Position numbers and translations under genes: made by a program
In this document: positions 37,131 to 56,432 of the stretch, in pieces
Layout: each line of letters opens with the position of its first letter
Position numbering within the stretch: the first letter of the stretch is position 1
From: Opitutales bacterium
Lineage (GTDB): Bacteria > Verrucomicrobiota > Verrucomicrobiia > Opitutales > Oceanipulchritudinaceae
Length of the DNA: 64,000 nt
Direction: 5' to 3'
Assembly (NCBI GenBank): GCA_020831485.1
Contig: JAFIGG010000002.1
Span: 1-64,000, forward strand
Notes under the pieces: generated by a model
Seen by the model: only the letters and a program-made list of their open reading frames with translations
Databases searched by the model: none
Told to the model about the DNA's origin: nothing

Positions 37131-38279
37131 GTGACTTATTTCAAGGCAGTTAATTTTCAGGCAAGGGCCATTTTTAGAGACAAGGGTGTGCTCCTATTGA
37201 TGGTCATCGCCCCCCTACTGTACGGGCTCTTTTATCCACTGCCTTACCTGACCGACCGTGCAGAGAAAGTTCCTGTCGCGATTGTTGTTAAGGACTCCGG
37301 AGCACTTACCCAACAGTTGACTCGCTGGATGGAGGCCTCTCCAAGATTGCTGATTTCCGCGGTGTTCAACGACCTGGCCTCTGCTGAACAGGCCTACAGA
37401 AACGGTGAAATCCGTGGTTGGATTCTATTATACCGAGGTTGGGAAAATGATTTTAAACGTTCGGAAGCGATCGTCTTCCCAGTTGCGGGTGACGCTACAT
37501 CATTCATAGTCGCGCGCGAAGCAATGCTTGGGTTCACTGAAGTCAGCGGAACCCTTTCTGCAGGCATTCAACTCCAAAGATACCGGTCCGAAGGACTTTC
37601 CCGGGACCGGGCCGAACGGATGCGTGATCCGATTGCATTCGAGAGCATTCGACCCTTCAACCCGACGGAGAGCTACCTGAATACTGCCTACATCAGTGTT
37701 ATTCTCATCATTCTCCAACAAACTCTTTGGCTGGGTTTCGGCATGTCTATTGCAACCCAAAGGGAACGGGGGCATGCCTTTAGGAGCGCCCAATCAATGG
37801 CAGGCGCCCTGACCGTAGTTATTCTGCTGTATTTCATACATTCCGTGATACTGACCGGACCCGTCTTTAACTTCCTCAATCTGCCACTGCCTGCGGATCG
37901 GATTGGGGCTTTGTGCTTTCTGTTATTGCTGACGACCGTCTGGTCGCTCTACGGCCTTTGCCTGTGCAAGATATTTCGCCACCGTGAATCCAGTCCCGCG
38001 CTATGGGTTGGCACATCAATTCCCATCCTGTTTATTTCCGGGAGCATCTGGCCGAGCGAACAGCTACCCACAATTTTGCAGGTCTTCGCCTGGGTTTTTC
38101 CAAGCACACCCGGAATTCAGGGATTGTTGCAGCTCTGGGTATCCGATCTACCTGCGGCGGCGTTGAGAGGAGTATGGATTCCTCTGCTCGCTCAAGCGGC
38201 CGCTGCAGTGTCACTAATCGCAATAAGCCTTTACCTCAACAGGCAGGTTCCTTTAGCCTGCCGGGATGGAGAGCGCTGA
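37131..38279 (+). CDS. ABC-2 type permease (second of two)
   Basis: A 382-residue paralogue-like permease starting with GTG at 37131. It has an N-terminal helix (GVLLLMVIAPLLYGLFYPL), a periplasmic domain (VPVAIVVKDSGALTQQLTRW, then a long loop), and C-terminal helices (ISVILIILQQTLWLGFGM; LTVVILLYFIHSVILTG; IGALCFLLLLTTVWSLYGL). It probably forms a heterodimer with the preceding permease. No Walker motifs are present in it or in any other gene of this operon. The 3' end overlaps the next gene by 14 bp. Confidence 0.87.
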   Translation: MTYFKAVNFQARAIFRDKGVLLLMVIAPLLYGLFYPLPYLTDRAEKVPVAIVVKDSGALTQQLTRWMEASPRLLISAVFNDLASAEQAYRNGEIRGWILLYRGWENDFKRSEAIVFPVAGDATSFIVAREAMLGFTEVSGTLSAGIQLQRYRSEGLSRDRAERMRDPIAFESIRPFNPTESYLNTAYISVILIILQQTLWLGFGMSIATQRERGHAFRSAQSMAGALTVVILLYFIHSVILTGPVFNFLNLPLPADRIGALCFLLLLTTVWSLYGLCLCKIFRHRESSPALWVGTSIPILFISGSIWPSEQLPTILQVFAWVFPSTPGIQGLLQLWVSDLPAAALRGVWIPLLAQAAAAVSLIAISLYLNRQVPLACRDGER

Positions 38280-39450
38280 ACCCACTGCAGCACAGGCGAT
38301 AACCCTATTCATTGTTGCCTTTCTGGTTCTCCCTATGGCCGGATGCGTCGATCGCGATGAAGCGGAACAACCGGGTAATCTTCTGCGTGTCGCTGCCCTC
38401 TTCAATGATCAGGACCTCCAGCTTCGCTTCGAATACCCGACGGAAACACCCAGCTGGTATCATCAATACCTGGTCTACCGCAATGGCGAATGGACGCGTT
38501 ACGGTTTGGGTGCTGACGGACGTGATGAACACGGTTTTTATGAAGACCGGATTTCAGTGATGTGGGATGACGGTTCGGTGCGTAATTTCGAGAATCTGGG
38601 CGGATACGTAGCCGTTCACCCAGGTATGCGCAGCACCCGCAGCGAGGTGGACAGCGATGCGGTCGGCGATCACTCCTATCTGGGGGATGAGCTCGGGCGC
38701 TCGGATGTTCGCAAATTCATTCTCGAATCCCGCGACAGCGATGTCAGCCCGCTCGATGCGTGGGAAGCGGTTCTGCCTGAGGATCAAATCCGGGAGCTAC
38801 TGGAGGCCGGCGTCTTTCTGGACCTATGGCAATGGCGAGCCCATCGATCCAACCCGATCGGCTTTGCCGACAACGGCTACGTGCTTGATTACCGCCACAG
38901 CTCATCGGGCCGCGGCATGTATACGGACAATGTGGACGATTCAGGAGCCCCGGCCTGGATGTACGATTCGGAAAAAACCGGTTTTCATGCCCTGCTCTTC
39001 GAGCAGCTGGTGGAGCAAGCCTACAGCCAGGACGATTGGTACTTTCTCAGCGAATCCATCGCAAAGCCATTCGACCCAGAGCACGACTGGCAGGACGGGG
39101 ACGCCCTACCCCAACGCTTTCTACGCGAGCCCGAAGGCAGCCGCGGGGCCATTCGCGCCGACGGCCGCCACAGCGACGGAGCCTGGCAGGTGCGCCTGAC
39201 GCGCAGCATGGAAGCACCCGACCCGCTCGACAGCAAAAGTTTTGCGGAAGGCGACGTTTTTCATGTGGCCTTCTCGGTTCACTCCGGGGCCGGAGCCCGT
39301 CATCACCTCGTCAGCCTGCCCCTGTCGTTTGGTTTTGCCACCGACGCTGAAATCATCGCCCAGAAAGTTGAGGGCGACCTCGATGAGGCTGAAGTCGAAT
39401 GGGTTGAAATAGAACTCTTTGATCCCGGCGATCCGACGCCGGAGCGCTGA
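38266..39450 (+). CDS. ethylbenzene-dehydrogenase-like heme-binding lipoprotein
   Basis: A 394-residue lipoprotein with lipobox LPMAGC (Cys27). The body has the pattern of the EB_dh/cytochrome c-552 C-terminal domain: LQLRFEYPTETPSWYHQYLVY, SVMWDDGSVRNFENLGG and the characteristic VFLDLWQWRAHRSNPIGFADNGYVLDYR. In ethylbenzene and DMSO-type enzymes this domain binds heme b through Met and Lys; those residues cannot be fixed here. Start and previous stop overlap (14 bp), so it belongs to the exporter operon. The link between a heme-domain lipoprotein and the exporter is unexplained. Confidence 0.75.
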   Translation: MESAEPTAAQAITLFIVAFLVLPMAGCVDRDEAEQPGNLLRVAALFNDQDLQLRFEYPTETPSWYHQYLVYRNGEWTRYGLGADGRDEHGFYEDRISVMWDDGSVRNFENLGGYVAVHPGMRSTRSEVDSDAVGDHSYLGDELGRSDVRKFILESRDSDVSPLDAWEAVLPEDQIRELLEAGVFLDLWQWRAHRSNPIGFADNGYVLDYRHSSSGRGMYTDNVDDSGAPAWMYDSEKTGFHALLFEQLVEQAYSQDDWYFLSESIAKPFDPEHDWQDGDALPQRFLREPEGSRGAIRADGRHSDGAWQVRLTRSMEAPDPLDSKSFAEGDVFHVAFSVHSGAGARHHLVSLPLSFGFATDAEIIAQKVEGDLDEAEVEWVEIELFDPGDPTPER

Positions 39451-39477: not shown

Positions 39478-40185
39478 TCAGCTCAAGCCCTCGTCGGCCA
39501 GTGCCTTGCTGATGCGGTCCTCCCCCGTATATATATGTTGGTGCATGACCATTTGAGCCTTGAACGCATCATGGGATTCAATCGCATCAACGATTGAGTG
39601 GTGCTCTTTGGATGGATTTCCGGAATCCAGTTGTCGCCCGATACCCAGGTAGGCCGGTCGCTGATATTTATCCAGGGCATCCATAACGGATTCTTCCAGC
39701 AAATGGTTCCCCGTCGCTCTCACCAAGTGAAGGTGGAATAAGGAATTATAGCGACAGTATTCCCTGAACGACTCTTCATCCCCTATTGTGTAGGATGGCA
39801 AATCGGCATACTTTCTCAGTGTCTCGATGGTTTCCTTCGAAGCCCGGGATGCCGCCAGAGCCGCGACCTGTGGCTCAACAATTCGACGGAATTCATTGAG
39901 CATCCTGAATTCATCAACCCTCAAAGGCGTAACATGGTAACCCCGGTGGGCTTGGATCTCCACGAGCTTTTCATTGATCAAGCGGTTGATGGCCTCACGT
40001 AAAGGCGTTCGGGAAATCGCGAATTCATCGCAGAGGTTCTTTTCCACCAGACGCTCGCCCGGATTCAATTCACAGGTCAGGATCCGGGCTTTGAGGATGG
40101 CGTAGAGACGGTCCGGCAGGGCCACAGAACCGAATCCGGATTGGGTTATTTCGACGAGAGATGGGGAATGATTGCGGTCTAACAT
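39478..40185 (-). CDS. GntR family regulator with FCD domain
   Basis: A 235-residue FadR-subfamily regulator. The N-terminal winged helix lies at about residues 18-85 (LPDRLYAILKARILTCELNPGERLVEKNLCDEFAISRTPLREAINRLI). The C-terminal FCD ligand domain covers about residues 95-225 (EFRMLNEFRRIVEPQVAALAA; RYNSLFHLHLVRATGNHLL). FCD domains bind small carboxylates, often with a metal. It is divergent from the aspartase operon, and two TTGTATACAA-like sites lie between, so it most likely controls that operon in response to a compound such as aspartate, fumarate or a beta-aspartyl dipeptide. The ligand is inferred. Confidence 0.93.
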   Translation of the reverse strand: MLDRNHSPSLVEITQSGFGSVALPDRLYAILKARILTCELNPGERLVEKNLCDEFAISRTPLREAINRLINEKLVEIQAHRGYHVTPLRVDEFRMLNEFRRIVEPQVAALAASRASKETIETLRKYADLPSYTIGDEESFREYCRYNSLFHLHLVRATGNHLLEESVMDALDKYQRPAYLGIGRQLDSGNPSKEHHSIVDAIESHDAFKAQMVMHQHIYTGEDRISKALADEGLS

Positions 40186-40264
40186 GTTTAAATCTGGAAA
40201 TTGTAGCTTCCCGCCGGGCAGTAAGTTACGGAAAACTCAGAATAGTAGAGATCGAGTTGAAATA

Positions 40265-40275
40265 CTTGTATACAG
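40265..40275. promoter_or_regulatory. GntR-type operator candidate, left
   Basis: CTTGTATACAG is an 11-bp near-palindrome with the TGTATACA core of FadR-subfamily GntR sites. It lies 80 bp upstream of the gntR start. Its twin core lies 191 bp away beside aspartase. Confidence 0.55.
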
Positions 40276-40457
40276 CTCGTAAACAATAATTTGCCTTTAT
40301 TGTTACAGCGCAGGCAGCGTTTAGCCGTTGAATAGGCTGTTTCAACGATGAAGACGTCTTTTTGGAGTGTTTGGGTGTTTGCATCCAGTGGATCCTGGCA
40401 ATCTCTCCAAAGAACGAAATTTATCCTTGACCGAAGCGGTTCTGAATATAAATATAT

Positions 40458-40467
40458 TTGTATACAA
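40458..40467. promoter_or_regulatory. GntR-type operator candidate, right
   Basis: TTGTATACAA is a perfect 10-bp palindrome (flanked t...cc) ending 6 bp before the aspartase ATG. It shares the TGTATACA core with the site at 40265-40275. A protein bound here would cover the initiation region. Confidence 0.65.
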
Positions 40468-40473
40468 CCGGCT

Positions 40474-42306
40474 ATGACCTCTTCTCTCTCAGTCTCAAGC
40501 CCTAAGGAAAAGGGCGAAATCAATTCATCAAATCAGCAGCAAGCGGTTCTCGGCTTAGTCCGGGATTACGGCGAATTGTTCACTCCGAAATCTGGCTGCT
40601 TCATCGCTCACGAGCGGATGCCTATTCTCTATCTGGATGTGCTTATTGAAGGCCGAATGAATGCTTTTAAGGCGTCCGGGGATGGCCTCAGGTTTGTCCG
40701 TCGAATTGAATCGGGGGACATTCTTGGCGCGGAATTGCTAATGGATTCCGCCGTGGTGGTCTATCGGGAAACCGTCGAGGCGACTATGCCTTGTAGCATA
40801 GCCCGGTTCCCAAAATCTTCTCTACCCATTATCGCCCGTGAAAATCCAAGTGTTTATAAATTGCTCAAGGAAAAGGCATTCACGCTGTCCGGGGATAGCA
40901 ACCCGGATAGTTACCGCGAGGAAAGTGACCTCCTCGGCGTCCGCCAGTTGCCTGATTCCGCACTGTATGGAATCCAGACATTACGGGCATATGAAAATTT
41001 TCCGATTTCCGGGACGCCGGTAAGTCATTACCCTGGCTTTATTGCTGCCTTGGCCATGGTCAAGCTCGCCTGCGCGCAAGCCAACAGGGACCTGGATCTG
41101 CTGGATGAACCGGTTTTCAAAGCCATTTGCAAAAGTTGTAAAGCCTTGATCAAGGGGCGTCATCACCGCCACTTTATTGTCGATGTGCTACAGGGGGGGG
41201 CGGGAACCAGCACCAATATGATGGCGAATGAAGTGATCGCCTCTCTGGCTCAGGAAGAACTGGGTGCAAGCAGGGGCGACGTAGATGCAGTTCATCCGAA
41301 CAATCATGTCAACCTCAGTCAGAGCACGAATGACGTCTACCCTACCGCATTTCGAATTGCCGCACGCATCGGTTTGCGCCGTTTGCGGCAAGTCCTTAAT
41401 GATCTGGCCGCAGAGCTGGAATTGAAGGCATTGGAGTTTAATGATGTGATCAAGATGGGGCGCACACAACTGCAGGATGCCGTCCCAATGACTCTCGGTC
41501 AGGAATTTTCCGCCTACGCCTACACCCTGAGAGAGGACTTGCTGCGGCTTGAAGAGGCCGACGCTCTCCTCAGGGAAATCAACATGGGTGCGACGGCCAT
41601 TGGCACAGGCATAAATGCGCCCAGAGATTTTGGGCACAGCGTATGCACTCATTTGAAGTCTATCACGGGGCTGGATCTTAAAATTGCCGATAACTTGATC
41701 GAAGCCACTCAGGATACAGGTGCTTACGTGCAACTGTCGAGTGTTCTGAAACGGGTCGCGATAAAATTAAGCAAAATCTGCAATGACCTTCGTTTGCTTT
41801 CTTCCGGTCCGCGGGCCGGGCTGAATGAAATACAATTACCGGATGCACAGCCTGGTAGCAGTATTATGCCCGGGAAAGTCAATCCGGTTATCCCGGAAGT
41901 AGTTAATCAGGTAGCTTTTGAGGTCTCCGGAAATGATGTGACTATTACCATGGCAGCAGAGGCAGGACAGCTTCAATTGAATGCAATGGAACCAGTGATC
42001 TTCTGGTCGCTGTTTAAAAGTATCCACCATCTGCGCCAGGCTATTGTTACTTTCCATCACCGATGTGTAAAAGGTATCAAGGCCAATAAAGATGTCTCCA
42101 GAAATCATGCAGAGAACAGTATTGGCCTGATAACTGCATTAGCTCCTATGTTGGGGTATTCAAGAACCTCAAAGCTGGCCCGGCAGGCTTTAGTTTCAGG
42201 AAAAAGTGCTCGGAGCATCCTGGAGGAAGAAGGACTTCTTAGTAAAAAAGAAATCGCATCTATCCTCGACCTGAGGCGCTTAGCGGTTCCGGACCCAAAT
42301 AGATAA
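40474..42306 (+). CDS. aspA: aspartate ammonia-lyase with N-terminal cNMP-binding-like domain
   Basis: Converts L-aspartate to fumarate and ammonia. The C-terminal ~470 residues are a complete aspartase: VLQGGAGTSTNMMANEVIA, HPNNHVNLSQSTNDVYPTA, and the signature GSSIMPGKVNP (residues 461-471). About 140 extra residues precede it and read like a Crp-type cyclic-nucleotide-binding barrel (GCFIAHERMPILYLDVLIEGRMNAF; RRIESGDILGAELLMDS; RETVEATMPCSIARF), though the phosphate-binding cassette is not canonical. The total of 611 residues compares with ~470 for normal AspA. The start is the ATG at 40474, behind the operator; a longer frame would cover the operator. It is the first gene of the plus-strand row. 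Confidence 0.92.
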   Translation: MTSSLSVSSPKEKGEINSSNQQQAVLGLVRDYGELFTPKSGCFIAHERMPILYLDVLIEGRMNAFKASGDGLRFVRRIESGDILGAELLMDSAVVVYRETVEATMPCSIARFPKSSLPIIARENPSVYKLLKEKAFTLSGDSNPDSYREESDLLGVRQLPDSALYGIQTLRAYENFPISGTPVSHYPGFIAALAMVKLACAQANRDLDLLDEPVFKAICKSCKALIKGRHHRHFIVDVLQGGAGTSTNMMANEVIASLAQEELGASRGDVDAVHPNNHVNLSQSTNDVYPTAFRIAARIGLRRLRQVLNDLAAELELKALEFNDVIKMGRTQLQDAVPMTLGQEFSAYAYTLREDLLRLEEADALLREINMGATAIGTGINAPRDFGHSVCTHLKSITGLDLKIADNLIEATQDTGAYVQLSSVLKRVAIKLSKICNDLRLLSSGPRAGLNEIQLPDAQPGSSIMPGKVNPVIPEVVNQVAFEVSGNDVTITMAAEAGQLQLNAMEPVIFWSLFKSIHHLRQAIVTFHHRCVKGIKANKDVSRNHAENSIGLITALAPMLGYSRTSKLARQALVSGKSARSILEEEGLLSKKEIASILDLRRLAVPDPNR

Positions 42307-42332: not shown

Positions 42333-45300
42333 ATGAAATATAGTTCGTCTCTTAGTCTTCGATTCCGCGGTTTGCTGGCCGCTGCAATCATACCCTCTTT
42401 TATTGTGCCTTTAAGCACAGCGCAGGACGATGATGAAATACCTGTTTTCGACCTGCCGTCATTTGAAGTAACGGGTAGTTACATTCGTCAATTTGATGAA
42501 GAAGGCTCTATGCCGGTAACTGTAATTAATTTTGAGGATGTCGATGGTGAAGGTTTTATGACTCCTACCGAGTTTTATAATGACCTTTCCATGGCAGGTG
42601 GCATTTCAATCGGAGAAGGCGAAGATGGTCCGAATGCCGCACGCGGGGATGTTTCGTCGATTAATTTGAGAGAACTGGGTCCAGGCAACACTTTGGTGCT
42701 TTTGAATAATCGGAGACTGACCCCCCACCCTATGTCTCAGTCCCTGGGTGGAACGCCGACTTTGGTTGTCAATATCAACACTATTCCCGATGCGGCTATT
42801 CAGCGTGTAGAGATCCTGCGCGACGGTGCTTCGGCACTGTATGGAACAGACGCCACTGCTGGTGTGGTTAATACCATCCTTCGCCGCGATTACGAGGGCT
42901 CTCGGTTGACAGTTCGTTATGGATTCTCCGAAGACACTACTTTTCGTGAGTACCGCGCTGACTTCGCGCATGGCGTGAATTTCAATGATAACCGGACCAA
43001 TATCGCGATCTTCGGGCAAATCTTCGACAGGAGTGGGATGAGGGCTTCGGAAAGGTCCTATTCGGCTTCGGCGGACAGCCGTCCACTGCTTCCTGAAGAA
43101 TGGGAAGGCAATAACAGTTTCCGAAACCTTTCAGCCGTATCTCCCTGGGCTGGCTTTATTGCCGGTGGATTGTCTCCGGATGGAAATGTTTTCCGGGGTC
43201 AACGTGTCCGCTCAGGCTCAACAAACGTTTCGACTGCCGACGGCCGGTTTCATATCCGACCTGATGGTCTCCTGGAGGGCGGAATTACTTCACCGCAGAA
43301 CCCGGACAACGTTGTTGCCGATGGAAATCTGAATCCCGAGAGTCTGCGCTACGATCAGGGTCCCGACATTTGGTTAACACCTCAGTCCCGACGCTACAAC
43401 CTGTATGGGACCCTGAACCACCATCTTACAAATAACCTCAGCTTCTTCATGGAGCTGGGTCACTACCGCGCGAGTTCAATGACCCACCGGGCCCCGATTC
43501 CAATGGATGAAGGCCTCGCGTTTATGATTGTGCCAAAGACGAATTACTGGAATCCGCTCGGATCCGTAAATACTCCAAACCGTCTTCCCGGGGAACTCAC
43601 GATTGGGGGAACGGCATTGCCCGACGAAGGGATTGATCTGCTCATCCGACGTTATCGTCCAGTTGACTTCGGGCCTCGCATCGTAGAAGTGGAAAGCCGC
43701 TCCAACCGTTTCGTTGCTGGTTTCCGCGGACAGGTTCAGAACTGGTCCTGGGAATCGGGCGCTGTCTGGAACGATTCCCGCACCACTGACACTGAGTTGA
43801 ATCGTGTCAGCAAAACGCTTTTCCTGCGTGATCTTTCGCTCGACACTCCCGATGCATACAATCCCTTCAACGGTCCTTTCGCAAATCCTGAAGAAGTTCT
43901 GGAGCGTTCTCGTATTGAGGTGACCCGTATCGGTGAGACTGAGTTGGGGCTCGTTGATGTCAGGGCATCTACCTTCAATCTGTTCGAGCTCGCAGCGGGT
44001 CCAGTTGGATTCGCGGCAGGAGCGGAATACCGATATGAGAGCTATGCGGACATTCGTGATGACCGAATCAATGGCACTATCAATTTTGACCCACAAAGCA
44101 TGGAGGCACGTTTTCCGGAAATCCCAACCGGTGCAATTCCCTCGAACTATCAACCGGATTCCAGTGATGTTGTTGGGGTCAGTGCAACCGAAAACACCTC
44201 TGCGGATCGCGATGTAATCTCTGCATTCAGTGAAATGCAAGTCCCCATCTTCAGTCGCAGAAATGCTTTGCCCGGCCTGCATCGACTGGAAATGCAACTT
44301 GCGGTTCGCCACGAGGGTTACAGCGATTTTGGCAGCGCGACTAAACCCAAGATTGCCCTTTCATGGTATCCAATTCCTTCGGCATTTATCCGTGCCAGTT
44401 ATTCACAGGGATTTCGGGCTCCCAATCTGGCTCAGCTCTATGAAGGCGAGACCGAACGCCTCAGTCAGGGCCGTGAAGACTTCTACCGGACTATGTACTT
44501 GCCGGCCAACGAAGTCAGCGACCGGGATCGCGGTTTCTCTTATCGTCAAACCATTTCGGGTGGTAACGTTGACCTGACACCGGAGGAAACAGATACATTC
44601 TCCATTGGCCTGGTGGTTTCCCCTCCATGGCTTGAGGGATTGACGCTTTCCCTCGACGGCTGGTTCATTGAGCAGAAAGACGTTATCTCGCGCTTCGGCG
44701 TGGCCGAGGCCATCGCGCTGGATTCATATTTGAGGGATACAACGCCGGATATGCACAACCCGAATGTGGTCCGCACCGACCCAACGCCTTCAGAGGTCAC
44801 CATTTACGAAGCCCAGGGCAAACGTCCGGCTGGTGAAATTCTCTATGTGTATGATCCCGCCCTGAACATTGATAGCAGAAAAGCGCAAGGCTTGGATTTT
44901 GCAGCAAGCTACCGCATTCCATGGCAGGCTTTGGGCCGCTTCACATTCCGCTTCAATGCGAGTTATTATCTGAAATACGAAGAGAATCGAAGTGATTTGG
45001 ATGAGTTGCTGGATTATGTGGAGGGTGTATTGGTTCCCGCGAACCGTGATGTTTCCGCTATTGGCGGCGTTGTCCCTGACAAAATTCGCCGGGACGGTTT
45101 CCCCCGCTACCGCATGGACGGTTCCATTGCCTGGCGCAATGGACCATGGGGCGCCCGCCTTGCGCACCGCTACATGGACCATTTCTACGACACCAACGCA
45201 ACGCATACAGATACTGGGGAATCATGGAAGGTTTCTCACGCCACGAGAACTGATTTCCATGTCGACTATCGCTTTAGCGTTGGAGACCGCTTCCCCCGCT

Positions 45301-45434
45301 ACCGCATCCGCGTCGGCGTCCGCAATCTCTTTGATGTGGACCCTCCTCTCACGTCCACCGGCCGTGGATACACCTGGCGCTATCACAGCAACCGTGGACG
45401 CTACTGGCACACTGCCCTGCGTGCGGACTTCTAA
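42333..45434 (+). CDS. TonB-dependent outer-membrane receptor
   Basis: A 1033-residue receptor. A signal peptide (LAAAIIPSFIVPLSTAQ) precedes the plug domain at about residues 45-195 (FEVTGSYIRQFDEEGSMPVTV; IQRVEILRDGASALYGTDATAGVVN). The 22-strand barrel ends in an aromatic terminus (LRADF). Receptors of this type take up ligands too large for porins, driven by TonB. Its place between aspartase and the transporter/peptidase genes suggests cyanophycin fragments or beta-Asp-Arg as ligand. There is no SusD-like partner. Confidence 0.94.
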   Translation: MKYSSSLSLRFRGLLAAAIIPSFIVPLSTAQDDDEIPVFDLPSFEVTGSYIRQFDEEGSMPVTVINFEDVDGEGFMTPTEFYNDLSMAGGISIGEGEDGPNAARGDVSSINLRELGPGNTLVLLNNRRLTPHPMSQSLGGTPTLVVNINTIPDAAIQRVEILRDGASALYGTDATAGVVNTILRRDYEGSRLTVRYGFSEDTTFREYRADFAHGVNFNDNRTNIAIFGQIFDRSGMRASERSYSASADSRPLLPEEWEGNNSFRNLSAVSPWAGFIAGGLSPDGNVFRGQRVRSGSTNVSTADGRFHIRPDGLLEGGITSPQNPDNVVADGNLNPESLRYDQGPDIWLTPQSRRYNLYGTLNHHLTNNLSFFMELGHYRASSMTHRAPIPMDEGLAFMIVPKTNYWNPLGSVNTPNRLPGELTIGGTALPDEGIDLLIRRYRPVDFGPRIVEVESRSNRFVAGFRGQVQNWSWESGAVWNDSRTTDTELNRVSKTLFLRDLSLDTPDAYNPFNGPFANPEEVLERSRIEVTRIGETELGLVDVRASTFNLFELAAGPVGFAAGAEYRYESYADIRDDRINGTINFDPQSMEARFPEIPTGAIPSNYQPDSSDVVGVSATENTSADRDVISAFSEMQVPIFSRRNALPGLHRLEMQLAVRHEGYSDFGSATKPKIALSWYPIPSAFIRASYSQGFRAPNLAQLYEGETERLSQGREDFYRTMYLPANEVSDRDRGFSYRQTISGGNVDLTPEETDTFSIGLVVSPPWLEGLTLSLDGWFIEQKDVISRFGVAEAIALDSYLRDTTPDMHNPNVVRTDPTPSEVTIYEAQGKRPAGEILYVYDPALNIDSRKAQGLDFAASYRIPWQALGRFTFRFNASYYLKYEENRSDLDELLDYVEGVLVPANRDVSAIGGVVPDKIRRDGFPRYRMDGSIAWRNGPWGARLAHRYMDHFYDTNATHTDTGESWKVSHATRTDFHVDYRFSVGDRFPRYRIRVGVRNLFDVDPPLTSTGRGYTWRYHSNRGRYWHTALRADF

Positions 45435-45467
45435 AATAAACCCCAACTTTATTCAGCCCGAAAGAAC

Positions 45468-46871
45468 ATGTCTTTCCGTACACCAACACTCTTAGAATCG
45501 TTAATTCCATTATTTGCCATAGCTTTATTCCTTGGCGTTGGTTATGGAGTGCTCGGAATACGGGCGGAGATACTGCTTCTTGCGGCGACTGCTGTAGCCA
45601 GTGCTCTCGCTTGGCGCATGGGCTATCGCTACAAGGATTTGGAGGAAGGTATAATAGCGAGCATGATGAAGGGCATGCCGGCAATGTTGATTGTCATCGT
45701 TGTCGGTGCCCTCATCGGTTCATGGATTGCATCAGGCACAATCCCGATGCTCATCTACTATGGTTTGGAGATTATTTCTCCGAAATACTTCCTGGTTACA
45801 GCCTGTCTGGTATCCGCAGTGGTTTCATTGGTTACGGGAACTTCCTACGGAACGGTTGGGACGATTGGTGTGGCATTTGTTGGGATTGCCGAAGGATTGG
45901 GAATCCCTTTGGGGCAGGCAGCTGGAGCCATTGTGGCTGGTGCCTATTTCGGGGATAAGCTGTCCCCCTTCTCGGACACCACAAATCTGGCGCCTATCGC
46001 GGTGCAGGGTAACCTTTACGATCATATCCGTCATACCCTCTGGACCACAACGCCTGCGATGTTGTTGGGGTTGATTGTATACTTCTATCTGGGCTTAACC
46101 CGTCATTCCGATGGAAGCAGCATCGTACCAGCTGCGATCGAAATGCAGGAAACGATTGTTGCCAACTTCACCTTTCATCCTCTGCTAATCCTTCCGCCGG
46201 TCATTACGCTTACCCTTGCGATTATGCGGAAGCCGGTCATCCCGGGAATGCTACTTGCCTCTTTGGTCGCCTCGATACTGGCGATGGTCTACCAGGGTGC
46301 TGTCTTTAAGGAGGCGATGAATGTAATGGTCATCGGATATCATGGGATTACCGGTAGCGAGATGGTCGATTTGCTGCTCCAACGCGGCGGTATGCTGTCC
46401 ATGATGAATGTAAAGTTGATCGCTTTCTGTGCATTTGCCTTCGGAGGAGTTATTCAGCACACAGGTATGCTGGCCGTTATTCTGCAGGCGTTGACACGCT
46501 TCGCGAATACGACCGGTCGACTTGTGCTCACTGCTGTGACAGCCTCAATTACCACCGCGGTGATGACTGGTAGTTCCTTCCTCTCCATTCTCATTCCCGG
46601 TGAACTCTTCGCTCCGGCATTTAAAAAGCACAAACTGGCCGCAAAGAACCTTTCCAGAACCACAGAGGACAGCGGAACAGTGATTGTTCCATTGGTTCCC
46701 TGGAGCATCGCCGGAGTGTTCATGGCTGCGACCCTGAATGTGCCAGTGATCAGCTATGCGCCATGGGCCATTCTTTGCTACACTGGATTTATCTTTGCGA
46801 TTATTTACGGATATACGGGCATCGGTATCGCGCCGAAGATCCGTGATGATGAAACCCAACCTGGAAGCTAA
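45468..46871 (+). CDS. NhaC-superfamily Na+/H+ antiporter or amino-acid transporter
   Basis: A 467-residue inner-membrane protein with about 11 helices. NhaC motifs include VTGTSYGTVGTIGVAFVGIA, GAYFGDKLSPFSDTTNLA and LPWSIAGVF-like VPLVPWSIAGVFMA. NhaC-family members include Na+/H+ and malate/lactate antiporters as well as predicted amino-acid carriers (LysW, MetT, TyrT). In this operon it is the only inner-membrane transporter, so import of beta-Asp-Arg, Arg or Asp, or export of a C4 acid, is plausible. Confidence 0.9.
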   Translation: MSFRTPTLLESLIPLFAIALFLGVGYGVLGIRAEILLLAATAVASALAWRMGYRYKDLEEGIIASMMKGMPAMLIVIVVGALIGSWIASGTIPMLIYYGLEIISPKYFLVTACLVSAVVSLVTGTSYGTVGTIGVAFVGIAEGLGIPLGQAAGAIVAGAYFGDKLSPFSDTTNLAPIAVQGNLYDHIRHTLWTTTPAMLLGLIVYFYLGLTRHSDGSSIVPAAIEMQETIVANFTFHPLLILPPVITLTLAIMRKPVIPGMLLASLVASILAMVYQGAVFKEAMNVMVIGYHGITGSEMVDLLLQRGGMLSMMNVKLIAFCAFAFGGVIQHTGMLAVILQALTRFANTTGRLVLTAVTASITTAVMTGSSFLSILIPGELFAPAFKKHKLAAKNLSRTTEDSGTVIVPLVPWSIAGVFMAATLNVPVISYAPWAILCYTGFIFAIIYGYTGIGIAPKIRDDETQPGS

Positions 46872-46876
46872 TATTT

Positions 46877-47845
46877 ATGTATACACTTGTTATCCATGGC
46901 GGAGCGGGCGCATTGAGTCGCGACGCTATGACTCCTGAAATTGAGAACTCGTTTCGCTCCGGATTGAGCCATGCACTGAATATCGGAGAAGCAATTCTCA
47001 AAAGAGGCGGATCCAGCCTGGACGCCGTTGAAGCTGCCGTCAAGGAACTCGAAGACTGTCCCTTGTTTAATGCCGGACGCGGGTCCAACTTTACATTCGA
47101 TGGCATCAACGAAATGGATGCCTCGATTATGGAAGGTGCAACGCTCCGAGCGGGCGCTGTGTCTATGGTGCGTCGTATCAAAAACCCGATAAGCCTTGCC
47201 CGCAAACTGCTCGATAAAAACGAGCACGTTTTACTCACAGCCGAAGGTGCCCAGCGTTTTGCCCGTGAATGCAGAATCGCGGAAGTCAGTGATGACTATT
47301 TTCATACCGACTTTCGCTGGCGTGCAATGCTTAGGAACCGGGATTCTGGAAGTTCCAAATTATCTGAAGATGTCGTTCCGGATGGAGAGGTCTGTGATCC
47401 TCTTGACAAAAAATTCGGCACGGTTGGCGCCGTGGCGATGGATATCGAAGGAAACCTTGCCGCTGCGACTTCTACAGGCGGCACTACTGCAAAATATCCG
47501 GGCCGCGTTGGAGACTCCGCCATCATTGGTAGCGGTACCTATGCCAACAATGAAACCTGTGCGATTTCATGCACCGGTCATGGTGAATATTTTATCCGCA
47601 ACGTTACCGCTCACGAGATCAGTAACTTGATGATGTATAAGGGTATGTCTCTGAATGAGGCCGCGGACGAGGTGGTGCATAAGCAACTCATCGAAATGGG
47701 GGGTCGCGGTGGTGTCATCGGGGTGGATACGAAAGGCAACATCGCTGTGCCTTTCAATACCCCGGGAATGTACCACGCCTACATCACATCCGATGGTCAG
47801 CACTTTACGGGGATTTTTAAGGACGAGGGCATTGCTGCCAAATGA
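46877..47845 (+). CDS. iaaA: isoaspartyl peptidase / L-asparaginase (plant-type)
   Basis: A 322-residue Ntn hydrolase without signal peptide, so cytoplasmic. VIHGGAGALSRD starts the alpha subunit. LFNAGRGSNFTFDGINEMDASIM is typical, and self-cleavage is expected before Thr182 in KKFGTVGAVAMD, with the substrate loop TSTGGTTAKYPGRVGDSAIIGSGTYA following. Plant-type enzymes hydrolyse beta-aspartyl dipeptides and are known to split beta-Asp-Arg in cyanobacteria. It lies between the transporter and the exported hydrolase (stop overlaps the next start by 4 bp). Confidence 0.95.
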   Translation: MYTLVIHGGAGALSRDAMTPEIENSFRSGLSHALNIGEAILKRGGSSLDAVEAAVKELEDCPLFNAGRGSNFTFDGINEMDASIMEGATLRAGAVSMVRRIKNPISLARKLLDKNEHVLLTAEGAQRFARECRIAEVSDDYFHTDFRWRAMLRNRDSGSSKLSEDVVPDGEVCDPLDKKFGTVGAVAMDIEGNLAAATSTGGTTAKYPGRVGDSAIIGSGTYANNETCAISCTGHGEYFIRNVTAHEISNLMMYKGMSLNEAADEVVHKQLIEMGGRGGVIGVDTKGNIAVPFNTPGMYHAYITSDGQHFTGIFKDEGIAAK

Positions 47846-48723
47846 ATTTTTCCGGACTATTTAAACTCTGCCTGATGGCTTTGCTCGTTGCCTTTGCTGG
47901 CAATGGTGCATTTGCGGATTCCCTTAAAGAAGGTAAGGGAACCTTCCGTTTTAAGAATGGAGACGGACCCGAGATTCGTGTCTTTTACTACAAGGCGAAG
48001 GATCTGCCGGACAACAGTCCGATCATGTTTGTGATGCATGGGGTCAACAGAGATGCAGATCGATATCTGGCTGAATGGCGCCGCTTAGCTCGGGAGTATG
48101 GCTTCCTCCTCATTTGTCCCGAATTCTCAGAAAATGCATTTCCTGGCGCGAGGGGTTACAATCTGGGCAATGTATTCGATACCGACGGAAACATGAATCC
48201 CGAGGAACTTTGGTCTTACTCCTATATTGAGGGAATTTTTGATGACGTTAAGAAGCGGACTGGCTACCGCAACCGCGGCTATTACATGTATGGTCATTCG
48301 GCGGGCTCTCAATTTGTTCATCGAATGATATTTTTTCAGCCCCAGGCACGGTTCATCAAGGCTGTCTCCGCCAACGCAGGTTGGTACACCCTACCGCTGC
48401 CCGATATCGACTTTCCTTACGGCCTTAACAACACTCCGGTTTCGCGCAGAGACCTGATGCGTGCCCTGAATCAACCGCTGGTTGTGCTTTTGGGCACCAA
48501 AGACAATGACCCGAACCATCGCCACTTGCGCCGGGCCCCTGAGGCGATGCGACAAGGGGACCACCGCTTCGAGCGTGGCCATACCTTCTACTTTATGGGT
48601 GAGAAGCAGGCCCGTCACCTGAGCGTCAATTTCGGCTGGGAGATCAAACATGTTCCGGGCGTTGCTCACCACAACCGTTACATGGCTGCCGCTGCAGTCG
48701 AAGAGCTTTTTGGAAACAAGTAA
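47842..48723 (+). CDS. exported alpha/beta hydrolase (paralogue 1)
   Basis: A 293-residue secreted hydrolase with signal peptide (CLMALLVAFAGNGAFA). The oxyanion region is MFVMHGVNRDADRYLAEW, the nucleophile is Ser153 in YGHSAGSQFVHRM, the probable acid is Asp in GTKDNDPNHRHL, and the His is in VPGVAHHNRYM. It is related to dienelactone-hydrolase or PHB-depolymerase-like folds. Two other genes of the operon (53076 and 54643) carry the same domain. The substrate is unknown. It directly follows the isoaspartyl peptidase and directly precedes the cyanophycinases, so a role on the polymer or its side groups is inferred. Confidence 0.85.
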   Translation: MNFSGLFKLCLMALLVAFAGNGAFADSLKEGKGTFRFKNGDGPEIRVFYYKAKDLPDNSPIMFVMHGVNRDADRYLAEWRRLAREYGFLLICPEFSENAFPGARGYNLGNVFDTDGNMNPEELWSYSYIEGIFDDVKKRTGYRNRGYYMYGHSAGSQFVHRMIFFQPQARFIKAVSANAGWYTLPLPDIDFPYGLNNTPVSRRDLMRALNQPLVVLLGTKDNDPNHRHLRRAPEAMRQGDHRFERGHTFYFMGEKQARHLSVNFGWEIKHVPGVAHHNRYMAAAAVEELFGNK

Positions 48724-48735
48724 TCACCCATTAAG

Positions 48736-49965
48736 ATGATTCCCAAATTTATGAATTCACTCCTTTCATTCCGTTCCTCAAGAACGGTGGTCGCTTCGGC
48801 GCTCATAGCGTTGCTTTCCCCGTTTTCGCTGTATGCCGAAATGCTACACAGGGAGATCCCCGAAGGCGCGGGACCGCTGGTAATCGCAGGGGGAAGTGAG
48901 AGCGAGTCCTGGGAAGAGATTTTTGCTACCATAGTGGACTTGAAGTTGGAAGGTCGACCTTTGGCTGTCTTTGGAACCGGTCAAACCGATTCCAATGCTA
49001 GATCTGCCGGGGAAAATCTGGTCGCCCGGATAAATTCGACCTTCGGCGATGACACTGCTGTCTACGTTCATATCACATCCAGCTCGGGAGGAAACGATCC
49101 AAAGAATGTGGCTGCTATTCGCGCGGCTGGCGGAGTGTTTTTTGTAGGTGGTATTCAAGGTAGAATCATGGACGGATTCACCAATTCTGATGGAGATCCC
49201 AGCCCTGCATTTGAAGCCGTCTGGGAAATTTACGCCGCGGGTGCGGTTGTCGCTGGCAGTAGTGCCGGAGCCGCCATTATGGGTAGCCCAATGATATCCG
49301 GCGGGACATCCAGCAACGCGCTGGTCCGTGGTCCAACCCCCGCAGGGTCCTCGCCGCCTGGCGTGAACTATCGCGCGGGAATGGGTTTCAATCGGGATGC
49401 GGTTTACTGCCAACACCATATCGAACGGGGCCGCTTTGGCCGCCTGCTTACCGCAGTGGTTAATCCGGTTTTTGGCAGCGATTTTGGGATAGGAATTGCT
49501 GAGGACACTGCCCTCTTGATCGACAACAGCTCTCGCATTGCAACCGTGATTGGAAGCAAGGGAAGCATAGTGATCGATGCCTCGGAAGCCGAATTGCTGG
49601 ACCGCGGGCAAATGACCGGCGTCAAAGTACACTATCTCGACCGGGGAGACCGAATTAACCTGCGGACTCGTGAGATCCACATCGCCGATGGACGCCTTCC
49701 TGCAGACCCCAGCCAAACCGGTGATGCGATTGCGGTCGATGCCTGGGATGCGAATGCCATCTACGACCTGATGGTGCAAATTATGGATACCCAAGGGGTC
49801 GATTCCGGCATAGCCATCGATACAAACTTTAACCTCATTTTCGAAGCCACCAAAAACACGCAGCTGCTCCGCATGACCGATGAAACGGACGGTGTTCGCC
49901 CAACCTGGAGTGTCATCGATATGTCCCTGAGTGTTCTGCGCCGGGATGATGAAGCTCCTATCTGA
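48736..49965 (+). CDS. cphE: exported cyanophycinase
   Basis: A 409-residue S51-type serine peptidase that cuts cyanophycin into beta-Asp-Arg dipeptides. The signal peptide (VVASALIALLSPFSLYA) indicates export, like secreted CphE and unlike cytoplasmic CphB. The family motifs are present: GPLVIAGGSES, FFVGGIQGRIM, nucleophile Ser176 in AGSSAGAAIM, VYCQHHIERGRFGRLL, GIAEDTALLI. The usual Asp-Gln-His-Phe of this strand is Cys-Gln-His-His here. The second copy, downstream, is a close paralogue. Confidence 0.9.
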   Translation: MIPKFMNSLLSFRSSRTVVASALIALLSPFSLYAEMLHREIPEGAGPLVIAGGSESESWEEIFATIVDLKLEGRPLAVFGTGQTDSNARSAGENLVARINSTFGDDTAVYVHITSSSGGNDPKNVAAIRAAGGVFFVGGIQGRIMDGFTNSDGDPSPAFEAVWEIYAAGAVVAGSSAGAAIMGSPMISGGTSSNALVRGPTPAGSSPPGVNYRAGMGFNRDAVYCQHHIERGRFGRLLTAVVNPVFGSDFGIGIAEDTALLIDNSSRIATVIGSKGSIVIDASEAELLDRGQMTGVKVHYLDRGDRINLRTREIHIADGRLPADPSQTGDAIAVDAWDANAIYDLMVQIMDTQGVDSGIAIDTNFNLIFEATKNTQLLRMTDETDGVRPTWSVIDMSLSVLRRDDEAPI

Positions 49966-49986
49966 AGAAAATATCAACTTAAGCAA

Positions 49987-52191
49987 ATGAATCTTAAACT
50001 TATGAATTCACCTCTCTCATTCAATTCTTTCAGAAGGGTAGCTGTTTCGGCGCTCATCGCCCTACTCTCCTCTTTTACGCTATTTGCTGATACCTTGCCC
50101 ACCGAAATCCCGGAAGGTGCCGGCCCGCTTGTGATTGCAGGTGGAGGTGTAAACCAATCCTGGGATGAAATCTTCGGTACCATCGTCGACTTGAAGCTGG
50201 AAGACCGTCCGCTGGCCATTTTCGGGACCGGGCAATCCGTTTCCAATGCCCGCCCGGCAGGAGAAAATTTAGTCGACCGTATCAATACCACCTTTGGCGA
50301 AGGCACGGCGATATACGTTCATATTACTTCCAGTTCAGGCGGAAACGATCCGGACAACGCGGATGCGATTCTCTCTGCCGGAGGGGTGTTTTTTATTGGC
50401 GGCAGTCAGACAAGCATCATGAACGGTTTCACCAATTCCGGAGGAACTCCGACCCCTGCACTTGAAGCAATCTGGGAGATCTATGCAGAGGGTGCGGTTA
50501 TTGCGGGCAGCAGTGCCGGGGCCGCGATTATGAGCGACCCAATGATTTCCGGCGGGACTTCCAGCAATGCGTTGGCCCGCGGGGCAACCCCTGCCGGGTC
50601 CTCTCAGCCTGGAGTGAGCTATCGCGCGGGAATGGGCTTCAATCAAGATGCTGTCTACTGCCAGCACCATATTGAACGGGGCCGCTTTGGTCGCTTGCTC
50701 GCCGCCGTGGTCAGCCCGATTTTTGGCAGCGACCTGGGGATCGGAATTGCCGAGGACACTGCCCTATTGATCGACAACAGCACTCGCATTGGAACTGTGA
50801 TTGGAGGCAAGGGAAGCATAGTGATCGATGCCTCGGAAGCCGAATTACTGGATCGCGGTCAAATGACCGGCGTCAAAGTACACTACCTCGATCGGGGGGA
50901 TCGGATTAACCTGTTGACTCGTGAGATCTACATTGCCGATGGACGCCTTCCTGCAAATCCCAGCCAAACTGGTGATGAGATTACGGTGGGTGCCTGGGGC
51001 ACGAATGCCATCTACGACCTGATGGTACAAATCATGGACACGCAAGGGATCGACTCTGGGATCGCCAGCGATACAAACTTTGACCTCATTTTCGAAGCCA
51101 CCGGGGATACGCAGTTACTCCGAATGACCGACGAAGCGGACGGAGTTCGTCCAACCTGGAGTGTCACCGATATGACTCTGAGTGTGCTGCGGCGGGACGA
51201 TGAAGCTTCCCATTACCTGCATGACTGGCACTTCGAGGAAGCCGAAGGAACCGAAATGTCGGCAACTTTGAATTCAGCCCGGCCCTGGGTTACCTGGAAC
51301 GGCAATCTGGCGGATTCTTTTACCACCGGTGACGGTACTTTTCGCATCCAACGCAACGCTGGTGGTTTGAACCGGCGGGTCGATGTAGGCGAGACTGACG
51401 GCGCCGAAATCCTCTACATGCTAGTCGATTTTGCCGGCTGGAATCTTGCCGACGTTACCAATCCGGATGCCGGTGACATTGAGATTCGAATGCACTTTAT
51501 GAACGGCGAGGCCGCCGACAATCCTGGCCAGATCACCGCTGGTATGCGCCTGATTCACAATACGGATGGAACCGTCTCACTGCAGGCCGACTCGACCGGC
51601 ACAGCCGCGCCCGGTGGTGAAACCAGTGAGCCAGTGAGCCTCTTCAGCGAAACCCAACTGGAGGACCTGAAACTGGTAACTGCTTACAACACTGTTAAGC
51701 ACTCCTATTCAGTCTACTACCAGGAAGGTGATGGTGACTGGGTGGAATTCTTTGCCGGGAACACAAGCGGCCTTCGCGCTGCGATCTCTTTCAGAATGTG
51801 GATCCGGGGCGATTTCTATGGCGACGGTTTGAACTACATGGACCTGAATCGTTTCGCCGTAACAACCTTTTTCCCGGACGGAGACCCAGTGGATCAAGGC
51901 GATTCCGTAAGTATCTGGGATGAACTGGAAACGATCAACAACACTGGCTTTAAGGACACCAATATTGGGATTGTCTGGGACCAGCAATGGCCATGGGTCT
52001 ACCACGCGCCTTCACATGGCTGGATTTGGTTCAATTCCGAACAGGACTTGACCGAGGACGCCGGTATTTGGGGCTACCACGTGAATGCTTCCAAATGGAT
52101 CTGGGTCGGTCTGGAAGTCGACGGTTGGGTCTATGAAATGGGCGAGTCTTCGGAACAGTGGACGCCGGCAACAGAAATTGGGAATGACTAA
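49987..52191 (+). CDS. cphE: exported cyanophycinase with C-terminal binding modules
   Basis: A 734-residue secreted protein. Residues ~30-410 are a cyanophycinase closely matching the previous gene (Ser176 in GSSAGAAIM, YCQHHIERGRFGRLL, GIAEDTALLI). Residues ~415-625 are a DWHFEEAEGTEM-type beta-sandwich module, also seen in 52222, 53076 and 57606. The last ~95 residues are a Trp/Tyr-rich tail (WVYHAPSHGWIWF; ASKWIWVGLEVDGWVYEM). The modules probably hold the enzyme to the polymer granule or the cell surface. It arose by tandem duplication plus module gain. Confidence 0.9.
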   Translation: MNLKLMNSPLSFNSFRRVAVSALIALLSSFTLFADTLPTEIPEGAGPLVIAGGGVNQSWDEIFGTIVDLKLEDRPLAIFGTGQSVSNARPAGENLVDRINTTFGEGTAIYVHITSSSGGNDPDNADAILSAGGVFFIGGSQTSIMNGFTNSGGTPTPALEAIWEIYAEGAVIAGSSAGAAIMSDPMISGGTSSNALARGATPAGSSQPGVSYRAGMGFNQDAVYCQHHIERGRFGRLLAAVVSPIFGSDLGIGIAEDTALLIDNSTRIGTVIGGKGSIVIDASEAELLDRGQMTGVKVHYLDRGDRINLLTREIYIADGRLPANPSQTGDEITVGAWGTNAIYDLMVQIMDTQGIDSGIASDTNFDLIFEATGDTQLLRMTDEADGVRPTWSVTDMTLSVLRRDDEASHYLHDWHFEEAEGTEMSATLNSARPWVTWNGNLADSFTTGDGTFRIQRNAGGLNRRVDVGETDGAEILYMLVDFAGWNLADVTNPDAGDIEIRMHFMNGEAADNPGQITAGMRLIHNTDGTVSLQADSTGTAAPGGETSEPVSLFSETQLEDLKLVTAYNTVKHSYSVYYQEGDGDWVEFFAGNTSGLRAAISFRMWIRGDFYGDGLNYMDLNRFAVTTFFPDGDPVDQGDSVSIWDELETINNTGFKDTNIGIVWDQQWPWVYHAPSHGWIWFNSEQDLTEDAGIWGYHVNASKWIWVGLEVDGWVYEMGESSEQWTPATEIGND

Positions 52192-52221
52192 GATAGGATA
52201 ACGTTAAAAGGAAGGACGAAA

Positions 52222-53034
52222 ATGAAAAAGGGAATACTAATATTGAGCTGCGCCGGATTCGTCTGCGCATCGTATTTGAGTGCTAGCATACTCCACCATT
52301 GGAGTTTTGATGAGGCGATGGGGACAAACATTACGGATACCGTTAATTCGGCATCCCCTGGCGCTAACTGGAGCGATTGGAATGGCGACTCCGATGTGAC
52401 CGACATTTCAGGAACCACTACAGGAAACGGTTCGCTTCGAATCGAAACAACGGTCGCAGCCAGAGAGTCCCGCGTTCTGGTAGGAAACACAGGTGGAGCC
52501 GACACCTTGTTTCTGCGGACAAGAATTAACAGTTGGGAAATGACGGATACCGCGCAGATCAGGCTAGGTTTCATGAACAATGACCCCATATTTTCCGGTT
52601 CCAGTATTTATGCCGAAACTCGTTTTAACCTGCTCGGCGACAATAGTGTGGCTCTCGAGTCAGTGGCACTTGGAGGAGGGACAAGCTCTCCATCGGAAAC
52701 CCTATTCAGCAACATTATGAACCAACCCTTGGACCTGGTTCTGGGCGTGAACACAACGACCAATATGTATACTGTTCACTATCGAATTGGGTCGGACGCA
52801 TGGGTGGAGTTTTACGAAGGTGCACTTTCTTCAGCGCGTGAACCGTTGAACTTCCGGATGTATTACACCGCTGGAAGCGATGGAGAGATCACGATGGACA
52901 TAGACAGTGTCACCTTGAGCACCGTCAACCCGATCCCCGAGCCTCAAACCTATGCACTTATGTTGGGTTTCGCGGCGATTGGTTTTGTCTATCTGCGCCG
53001 CCGTCGCATCGGCCGTAAGACCGATGCAGCTTAA
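52222..53034 (+). CDS. PEP-CTERM protein with beta-sandwich module
   Basis: A 270-residue exported protein. A signal peptide (ILSCAGFVCASYLSASIL) is followed by one module of the same family as in the second cyanophycinase (HHWSFDEAMGTNITDTVNS; a C-terminal VHYRIGSDAWVEFYEG). The end is a PEP-CTERM sorting signal, IPEPQTYALMLGFAAIGFVYLRRRR. A strong Shine-Dalgarno (aaggaaggac) is present. It should be sorted to the envelope or surface by an exosortase, whose gene is not in the window. A binding or anchoring role is inferred. Confidence 0.85.
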   Translation: MKKGILILSCAGFVCASYLSASILHHWSFDEAMGTNITDTVNSASPGANWSDWNGDSDVTDISGTTTGNGSLRIETTVAARESRVLVGNTGGADTLFLRTRINSWEMTDTAQIRLGFMNNDPIFSGSSIYAETRFNLLGDNSVALESVALGGGTSSPSETLFSNIMNQPLDLVLGVNTTTNMYTVHYRIGSDAWVEFYEGALSSAREPLNFRMYYTAGSDGEITMDIDSVTLSTVNPIPEPQTYALMLGFAAIGFVYLRRRRIGRKTDAA

Positions 53035-53075
53035 TCGAGCCCTGCCCTTTCAAACTGCCATTACCGATACCTTTC

Positions 53076-54653
53076 ATGTTAACTAAATCCATCAGATGCC
53101 TCCTTCTGTTCGCCTTGCTGCTCCCAGTCTATGCGGCAAGCGGAAAGATCCTTCACGACTGGCAATTCAATGACCGGCGAGATACACCCCTGTCGGGAAC
53201 CCTGAATACTGCCTCCCGCTTCACCAACTGGGATGGCAATTTGGCGAATTCCAGAGCAACTGGTGACGGCTTATTCCGGATTCGTCGGGATGGTGGCGGT
53301 AATAACAGGCGGTTTGATTTGGGCAACACGGGAGACGCAGACGAATTCTTTCTGGTCGTTGAGATCGCCGGTTGGAACTTCACGAACACCCAGGGCCGCA
53401 ATCCAAATATCCGCTTTGAGTTCATGAACGAGCCTGCCCGGACTAATACCACCGAGACCACTGCTGGAATGCGGCTGGAAAGGATGCCAAATGGCTTGGT
53501 TTCAATGCAGGGATTTGCCTCCGGTACAGCCGCACCTGGTGGGCAGGCAAGCGATCCGAGGCCTCTGTTTAACTCATACATGAATCAGAAGCTGACGATG
53601 GTGACATCCTACAGCAAAAGCTTGAACCAGTATGTAGTGCACTTCCGTGTGGGTGACGGGCCTTGGTACGAATTCTTCCGAGGGCATACGAGTGGCGTCC
53701 GGGATGCTAAATCCGTTCGTATGCGCGTGTTCGGAGACTTCGATGGGGGCGGTCGCAATTACTTCAATATAGAACGCCTGTATGTATCAACTGAGTTTCC
53801 AAAGGACGCGCCCATCAGTCGTGAGCGACTCTGGCGCGAGGTTCAGGAAGAACAGCTCGACAAGTTCGTTTTTTCTCCCTCGGAGGGAGTAGAGATGGAT
53901 ATCTACTACTATACACCAGAGAACCTCACACCCGAGAGCCCTGTGGTGATGGTATTACATGGAGTGAATCGCGATGCAGACAGGTATTTGAGGCAGTGGC
54001 GATCGCTGGCCGCAGAGTACGGTTTTCTCCTGATCGTGCCTGAATTCAGTCAGGACAATTTCCCTGGCGACAGAGGCTATATCATGGGAAAAGTATTTGA
54101 TAGCGATGGAGAGAGAAATCCTAGGGAGACCTGGGCCTATTCTGCTCTCGAACCATTGTTTGATGAGGTTCTGGATCGCTTTGAAAACAGCAATGAGGGC
54201 TACTATCTCTACGGCCACTCGGCTGGCTCCCAGTTTGTTCACCGGATGAATTATTTTGTCCCGGATGCACGCTTTATCCATGCCGTCTCCGCAAATGCCG
54301 GTTGGTACACCCTGCCCACACACGAAATCGATTTCCCGTATGGTCTGAACAATACGGGAGTTTCCGAAGAGGAGCTTAAGCATGCGCTGAGCCAGCCCAT
54401 GCTGATTCTGTTGGGTGAAGAAGATAACGATCCAAATCATCGCCATTTGAGACGGGCACCCGAAGCAATGGAACAAGGAGCACATCGTTTTGCCCGTGGT
54501 AACAACTATTACAAGCGGGGCCAGGAAGCCGCAGAGGAACTTGGGGTCGAATTCGGCTGGCAGATTCAGACAGTTCCGGGTGTGGCCCACAACAATGCGC
54601 ACATGGCCGTCGAGGCTGCTGCATTTCTATTTAAAAACAAAAATGAAAATTAG
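53076..54653 (+). CDS. exported module plus alpha/beta hydrolase (paralogue 2)
   Basis: A 525-residue secreted protein. A signal peptide (LLLFALLLPVYAASG) leads into an N-terminal beta-sandwich module at about residues 25-245 (LHDWQFNDRRDTPLSG; NFTNTQGRNPNIRFEFMN). A C-terminal alpha/beta hydrolase covers about residues 255-520 with Ser382 in YGHSAGSQFVHRM, MVLHGVNRDADRYLRQW and VPGVAHNNAHM. The hydrolase part matches paralogue 1 nearly motif for motif. The stop overlaps the next gene by 11 bp. Confidence 0.85.
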   Translation: MLTKSIRCLLLFALLLPVYAASGKILHDWQFNDRRDTPLSGTLNTASRFTNWDGNLANSRATGDGLFRIRRDGGGNNRRFDLGNTGDADEFFLVVEIAGWNFTNTQGRNPNIRFEFMNEPARTNTTETTAGMRLERMPNGLVSMQGFASGTAAPGGQASDPRPLFNSYMNQKLTMVTSYSKSLNQYVVHFRVGDGPWYEFFRGHTSGVRDAKSVRMRVFGDFDGGGRNYFNIERLYVSTEFPKDAPISRERLWREVQEEQLDKFVFSPSEGVEMDIYYYTPENLTPESPVVMVLHGVNRDADRYLRQWRSLAAEYGFLLIVPEFSQDNFPGDRGYIMGKVFDSDGERNPRETWAYSALEPLFDEVLDRFENSNEGYYLYGHSAGSQFVHRMNYFVPDARFIHAVSANAGWYTLPTHEIDFPYGLNNTGVSEEELKHALSQPMLILLGEEDNDPNHRHLRRAPEAMEQGAHRFARGNNYYKRGQEAAEELGVEFGWQIQTVPGVAHNNAHMAVEAAAFLFKNKNEN

Positions 54654-56415: not shown

Positions 56416-56432
56416 TCAAGCTACACCTTATT

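Follow-up and report, generated by a model that had tools for sequence, protein, structure and literature searches.

Organization of the locus

The sequence analysed here (the window) is a 64 kb stretch of an Opitutales genome. On its plus strand, one uninterrupted reading frame encodes a protein in which a cyclic-nucleotide-binding (CNB) domain of Crp type precedes an aspartase (Table 1). The frame extends without a stop as far back as an ATG at 40348, and the start near 40474 is backed by homologues. The initial annotation had described an aspartase with an N-terminal Crp-type domain, and this description holds: the aspartase is complete and follows a CNB fold recognized both by PF00027 and as a predicted barrel, and the three motifs quoted at that time are present at about residues 52-113. 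Inspection of the sequence shows no Met around the domain border (residues 136-190), which makes it unlikely that a short aspartase is also produced separately. Chance or an assembly artefact was ruled out as the source of the fusion, since the same single ORF occurs in independent assemblies.

Table 1. Features of the CNB-aspartase locus (positions in the window)
Feature	Position	Strand	Basis
GntR/FCD transcription regulator, divergent	39478..40185	-	profile matches
TTGTATACA, candidate operator	40266..40274	.	motif count in window
TTGTATACAA palindrome, candidate operator, ends 6 bases before ATG	40458..40467	.	sequence, motif count
CNB-aspartase fusion, 610 aa	40474..42306	+	ORF calls, profile matches, homologues
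CNB (Crp-type) beta-barrel domain, residues ~18-143	40525..40902	+	AlphaFold, fold matches, PF00027 (residues 40-117)
Phosphate-binding-cassette region, residues 81-100	40714..40773	+	Arg position is Tyr97, then Arg98
Aspartase catalytic part (fumarase/aspartase superfamily), residues 146-606	40909..42291	+	profiles, alignment to solved aspartases
TonB-dependent receptor, next gene downstream of fusion	42333..45434	+	profile
NhaC-type antiporter (ArcD also matched, below cut-off)	45468..46871	+	profiles
Asparaginase_2 / beta-aspartyl-peptidase-type enzyme	46877..47845	+	profiles
Cyanophycinase-like (peptidase S51) protein	48736..49965	+	TIGR02069 110.5 bits, under cut-off 126.6
Second cyanophycinase-like protein	49987..52191	+	TIGR02069 106 bits, under cut-off

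The divergently transcribed GntR/FCD protein is likely the regulator of the fusion gene. Only 3 matches to TTGTATACA were found in the 64 kb (0.18 expected), at two places (40266 and 40458), and both places fall within the intergenic stretch between the two genes. No promoter or terminator was predicted by scans of 40150-40650. At 38266-39450, a protein with an Ethylbenzene-dehydrogenase-type (EB_dh) domain adjoins an ABC-2 efflux operon.

Downstream, the cyanophycinase-like genes are followed by a PEP-CTERM protein and a PGA_cap protein, and the cluster at 42333-57584 also holds proteins with sub-threshold PHB-depolymerase-type matches. This cluster is possibly an isopeptide-polymer utilisation locus; it would suit a pathway that draws on an Asp-containing isopeptide polymer, for instance cyanophycin, and ends with aspartase. 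In a term search, the words aspartase and ammonia-lyase were absent from a survey of cyanophycin (PMC10206079). The one pointer to arginine or beta-Asp-Arg as a possible ligand of the CNB domain is the presence of these cyanophycin-type neighbours in the window, and they are absent from the fusion loci elsewhere, as far as examined.

The catalytic part is a complete aspartase

Lyase_1 matches residues 159-486 and FumaraseC_C residues 552-603, and the catalytic part can be aligned over its whole length to the aspartases of E. coli (1jsw) and Bacillus (1j3u). It carries the motifs SQSTND, GRTQLQDA and GSSIMPGKVNP; the signature GSSxMPxKxNP and the active-site motifs line up with those of the two solved enzymes. 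AspA and AspB thus have the catalytic part, signature and motifs in common with the fusion, but the solved aspartases among the matches listed are 401-478 residues long and match nothing outside its catalytic part. An interaction with a separate protein, GlnB, is reported for AspA of E. coli.

Models of aspartate ammonia-lyase describe the catalytic part best. The aspartase model NF008909 scores 694 bits against a cut-off of 510, and it is unspecific in that the FumC-like gene of the same genome also passes; the equivalog TIGR00839 gives 631 bits, under its cut-off of 681. The fusion is the sole aspartase-type match in its genome. The two others are a FumC-like protein (42%), encoded by the second fumarase-family gene (contig 70984-72342; best to TIGR00979, below cut-off), and a distant superfamily member (26%). 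From its sequence, the window enzyme is predicted to catalyse the conversion of aspartate to fumarate and ammonia.

The N-terminal domain has a Crp-type fold

At the protein level, PF00027 (cNMP_binding) matches residues 40-117 of the window protein with an E value of 3.6e-6 and 27.3 bits, 0.2 below the gathering score of 27.5 bits, and the search on genome DNA gives 31.5 bits for the same stretch, above the cut-off. PF00027, Lyase_1 and FumaraseC_C are all matched by every member of the full-length alignment (24 of 24).

The AlphaFold model of the N-domain (155 aa), built from an alignment of 24 sequences that includes relatives, is a CNB barrel with a mean pLDDT of 80.6. Between residues 31 and 130 the ten-residue blocks have mean pLDDT values of 91-96, with the exception of 80 at residues 91-100, where the cassette lies. 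The full-length model shows both domains (mean pLDDT 79.2, pTM 0.70). Foldseek returned 619 PDB matches at E <= 0.001, the top ones being DNR, PKG and CRP-type domains. The fold prediction and comparison with Crp that had been suggested as a check therefore gave a CNB barrel and no unrelated fold, and VIA-align aligned 119 residues to CRP (4n9i) with Z 16.3 and rmsd 2.6. The fold matches could not be used to pick a ligand, because CRP, NtcA and PrfA have similar scores (Z 14.7-16.3, VIA-align rows) and DNR tops the Foldseek list. CRP/FNR-type regulators (CRP, NtcA, DNR) have the barrel and C-helix in common with the fusion domain; however, the output of the fusion is an enzyme instead of a helix-turn-helix, and the canonical Arg and Gly are absent from it.

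The canonical cAMP contacts are replaced in all 26 fusions aligned

Pocket residues were counted in an alignment of 26 fusions. At the cassette Arg position (PKA Arg209), His is found in 25 of 26 (His91 in L070, from Chthoniobacter flavus) and Tyr97 in the window protein, where Arg98 adjoins it, while Arg occurs in none; profile alignment to solved CNB proteins also puts the fusion His opposite Arg. At the Gly position of the beta2-beta3 loop (PKA Gly169; assigned by eye from the alignment), Ser (22), Lys (3) and Arg (1) are found, and Gly in none of the 26. Other residues are strongly kept: the pattern F-[HY]-E-x-x-P runs nearly throughout the family, 25 of 26 retain the cassette Glu and 24 of 26 the C-helix Arg, with Lys in one and a gap in the window protein. 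Compared with most fusions, the window cassette has about two extra residues, and this copy is without the cassette His, the register of the cassette Glu and the C-helix Arg that nearly all others keep.

Arg209 and Gly169 co-vary with cAMP use in CNB families, and other residues at these positions go with other ligands (Kannan 2007, PMC2246266). Ordinary cAMP sensing is therefore unlikely, because both residues are absent in 26 of 26 fusions. The remark in the initial annotation that the phosphate-binding Arg region is altered was correct, and its doubt about cAMP as the ligand is shared here, given the changed cassette Arg. Judging from these residues, the pocket likely has a different ligand, or none.

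The fusion recurs, mostly in Verrucomicrobiota

A scan of genome contigs that used the N-domain alignment as query found 24 loci; translation shows 23 of them to be fusions, and the one non-fusion is a Peribacillus locus. In the class draw, fusions were found in 12 of 384 genomes (14 copies), with matches starting at residue 31 or before of the 610-aa query. Fusions were found in 6 of 387 genomes in the phylum draw among the matches listed, including the window genome, which is counted in both draws; one genome (G259) has a second copy that was seen whole in the class draw. The order draw yielded 2 of 372 genomes, the window genome and G580. In the search of 55 relatives (54 plus the own genome), a domain-covering match was found only in the window genome among the matches listed, and all others begin at residue 135 or beyond. 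The CNB domain is missing from most genomes that have an aspartase- or fumarase-like gene (relatives search, phylum draw).

Carriers are mostly Verrucomicrobiota, such as Chthoniobacter flavus, Verrucomicrobium, Haloferula, an Akkermansia-labelled bin, an Opitutaceae bin and many Verrucomicrobiales bins. They also include one Geobacteraceae bin (L074) and one Anaerolineae bin (L076), each by one MAG contig. On these two contigs, binned outside Verrucomicrobiota, an upstream Dcu-type gene accompanies the CNB-aspartase; gene transfer or misbinning possibly accounts for them. Because the fusion recurs in other genomes, a functional role is likely.

The two parts evolve at different rates

In a tree of the catalytic part (53 rows), fusions fall into clade A (the window protein, L101 from G580, L033 and L091; support 100/98) and clade B (22 rows; support 100/100), and two unfused proteins, E. 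coli AspA and L035, lie between them. Two separate fusion events were considered and not adopted: a single fusion clade is not rejected by the AU test (p-AU 0.161), and the N-domains of the two clades find each other by profile with 43-63 bits. The clade B profile comparison alone is weak, because a Crp-like protein of the window genome (55.7 bits) scores nearly as well as clade A (57-63 bits). With the clade A profile, this Crp-like protein has only 22.6 bits, versus 43-51 for clade B. The clade A profile gives the window N-domain 30.4 bits and the clade B profile 16.3, which places it in clade A, as a strongly diverged member.

In each of the 14 pairs compared, divergence of the N-domain outpaces that of the enzyme. 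For example, the window protein and L101 are 25% identical in the N-domain versus 64% in the catalytic part, and L070 and L080 have 37% versus 70%. The window N-domain is 21-25% identical to its own clade. The window copy is the most diverged, and conclusions on the family may not carry over to it.

Metabolic neighbours of fusions elsewhere

A DcuA/DcuB-type gene lies directly upstream of the fusion in 6 of 23 loci, all in clade B; the family was assigned by clustering, with a profile run on one of the six. In other bacteria, DcuA and aspartase work as a pair in fumarate respiration (PMC10634366). Asparaginase is found near the fusion in L071 and L072 and AspT in L071 and L075, as clusters of which the L071 members were profiled.

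Directly downstream of the CNB-aspartase, two loci (L069:9768-11705 and L070:9863-12175, both plus strand) encode a triple fusion of CNB, acetate kinase and PTAC (phosphate propanoyltransferase). Its cassette is also without Arg (GDPA/GDPM, by eye), its CNB part is covered in 3 of 387 phylum genomes (G259, G293 and G388), and the G259 copy has an in-frame TAG. This second type of fusion hints at repeated recruitment of the CNB fold to fermentation enzymes.

Possible role of the CNB domain

Aspartase links amino-acid nitrogen with fumarate respiration and the release of ammonia. Considering the sequence and predicted structure together, we see about an even chance that the built-in CNB domain regulates the enzyme in answer to a ligand other than cAMP. 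The aspartase would convert L-aspartate to fumarate and ammonia under a regulatory domain of CNB fold, whose pocket would have been re-tooled away from cAMP by replacement of the phosphate-gripping Arg and loss of its partner Gly. The domain would most likely sense some other small molecule or cofactor that reflects anaerobic C4-dicarboxylate or nitrogen status, and a shape change would pass through the short linker to the aspartase tetramer. We counted in favour of such regulation the fold, the recurrence of the fusion, the residues that the family conserves although the domain evolves fast, and the metabolic neighbours (DcuA/DcuB-type gene, asparaginase, AspT), and against it the fast divergence of the domain, the loss of the kept residues in the window protein and the absence of the domain from most genomes with an aspartase- or fumarase-like gene. 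Ligand binding, allostery and the physiological role of the fusion are all inferred. Such a sensor of Crp fold, whose cAMP contacts are replaced in all members examined, would place a central metabolic enzyme under direct control of a non-cAMP signal.

A considerably less probable explanation is that the domain binds no ligand and serves the aspartase as an oligomerisation, stabilising or partner-docking module. Its fast evolution and the loss of both Arg and Gly throughout the 26 fusions would suit such a module, and KCNH-type CNB homology domains, one of which is among the Foldseek matches of the N-domain, are a ligand-free precedent. However, a specific His and Arg are kept at pocket-type positions in 24-25 of the 26, which is needless for a spacer.

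It is unlikely that the window domain is a relic, decaying in this genome from a fusion that was functional in its ancestors. The low identity to its own clade and the loss of part of the C-helix together with otherwise kept pocket residues point that way; against it, the frame is intact, AlphaFold predicts the barrel with confidence (though from an alignment that includes the relatives), and an N-domain identity of 25% beside 64% in the catalytic part lies only a little under what the family trend would give.

A true cAMP (or cGMP) sensor that works despite the changed cassette is improbable as well. The model for it would be mycobacterial Pat (Rv0998/MSMEG_5458), a CNB-acetyltransferase in which an N-terminal CNB domain is likewise fused to an enzyme and controls it (PMC5861322), a precedent for control of this kind. 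Pat chains 4orf, 4onu and 4oll match the fusion family profile, but Pat is activated by cAMP and its enzyme is a different one. The genome encodes a class III cyclase and other CNB proteins, and Arg98 of the window protein adjoins the Arg position; on the other side, the aligned Arg and the beta2-beta3 Gly are missing from all 26 fusions, and in PKA the change of Arg to Lys alone costs about tenfold affinity (Kannan 2007, PMC2246266).

Least probable, and very doubtful, is that the fusions are a family of aspartases gated by a sensor, in which the conserved cassette His would let the pocket bind heme or a gas- or redox-linked cofactor. CooA, which binds heme and DNA, has its heme-binding His at the PKA Arg209 position (Kannan 2007, PMC2246266); at this position 25 of 26 fusions carry a His and the window protein a Tyr. 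If the heme reading were true, aspartate would feed fumarate respiration only in the absence of oxygen or another acceptor, and the window Tyr variant would be a re-tuned member.

CNB-enzyme fusions are already known. Searches of open-licence PMC papers listed no description of a CNB-aspartase fusion; Kannan et al. 2007 (PMC2246266) list 30 CNB families, and a term search of this text returned neither 'lyase' nor 'aspartase'.

Further CNB proteins of the window genome include L094-L098 (C87:7169, C85:3676, C65:30369, C121:66138 and C65:32385), which by eye comprise one NADH-dehydrogenase-like protein with CNB and CBS domains, two CNB-CBS proteins and two CNB-histidine kinases.
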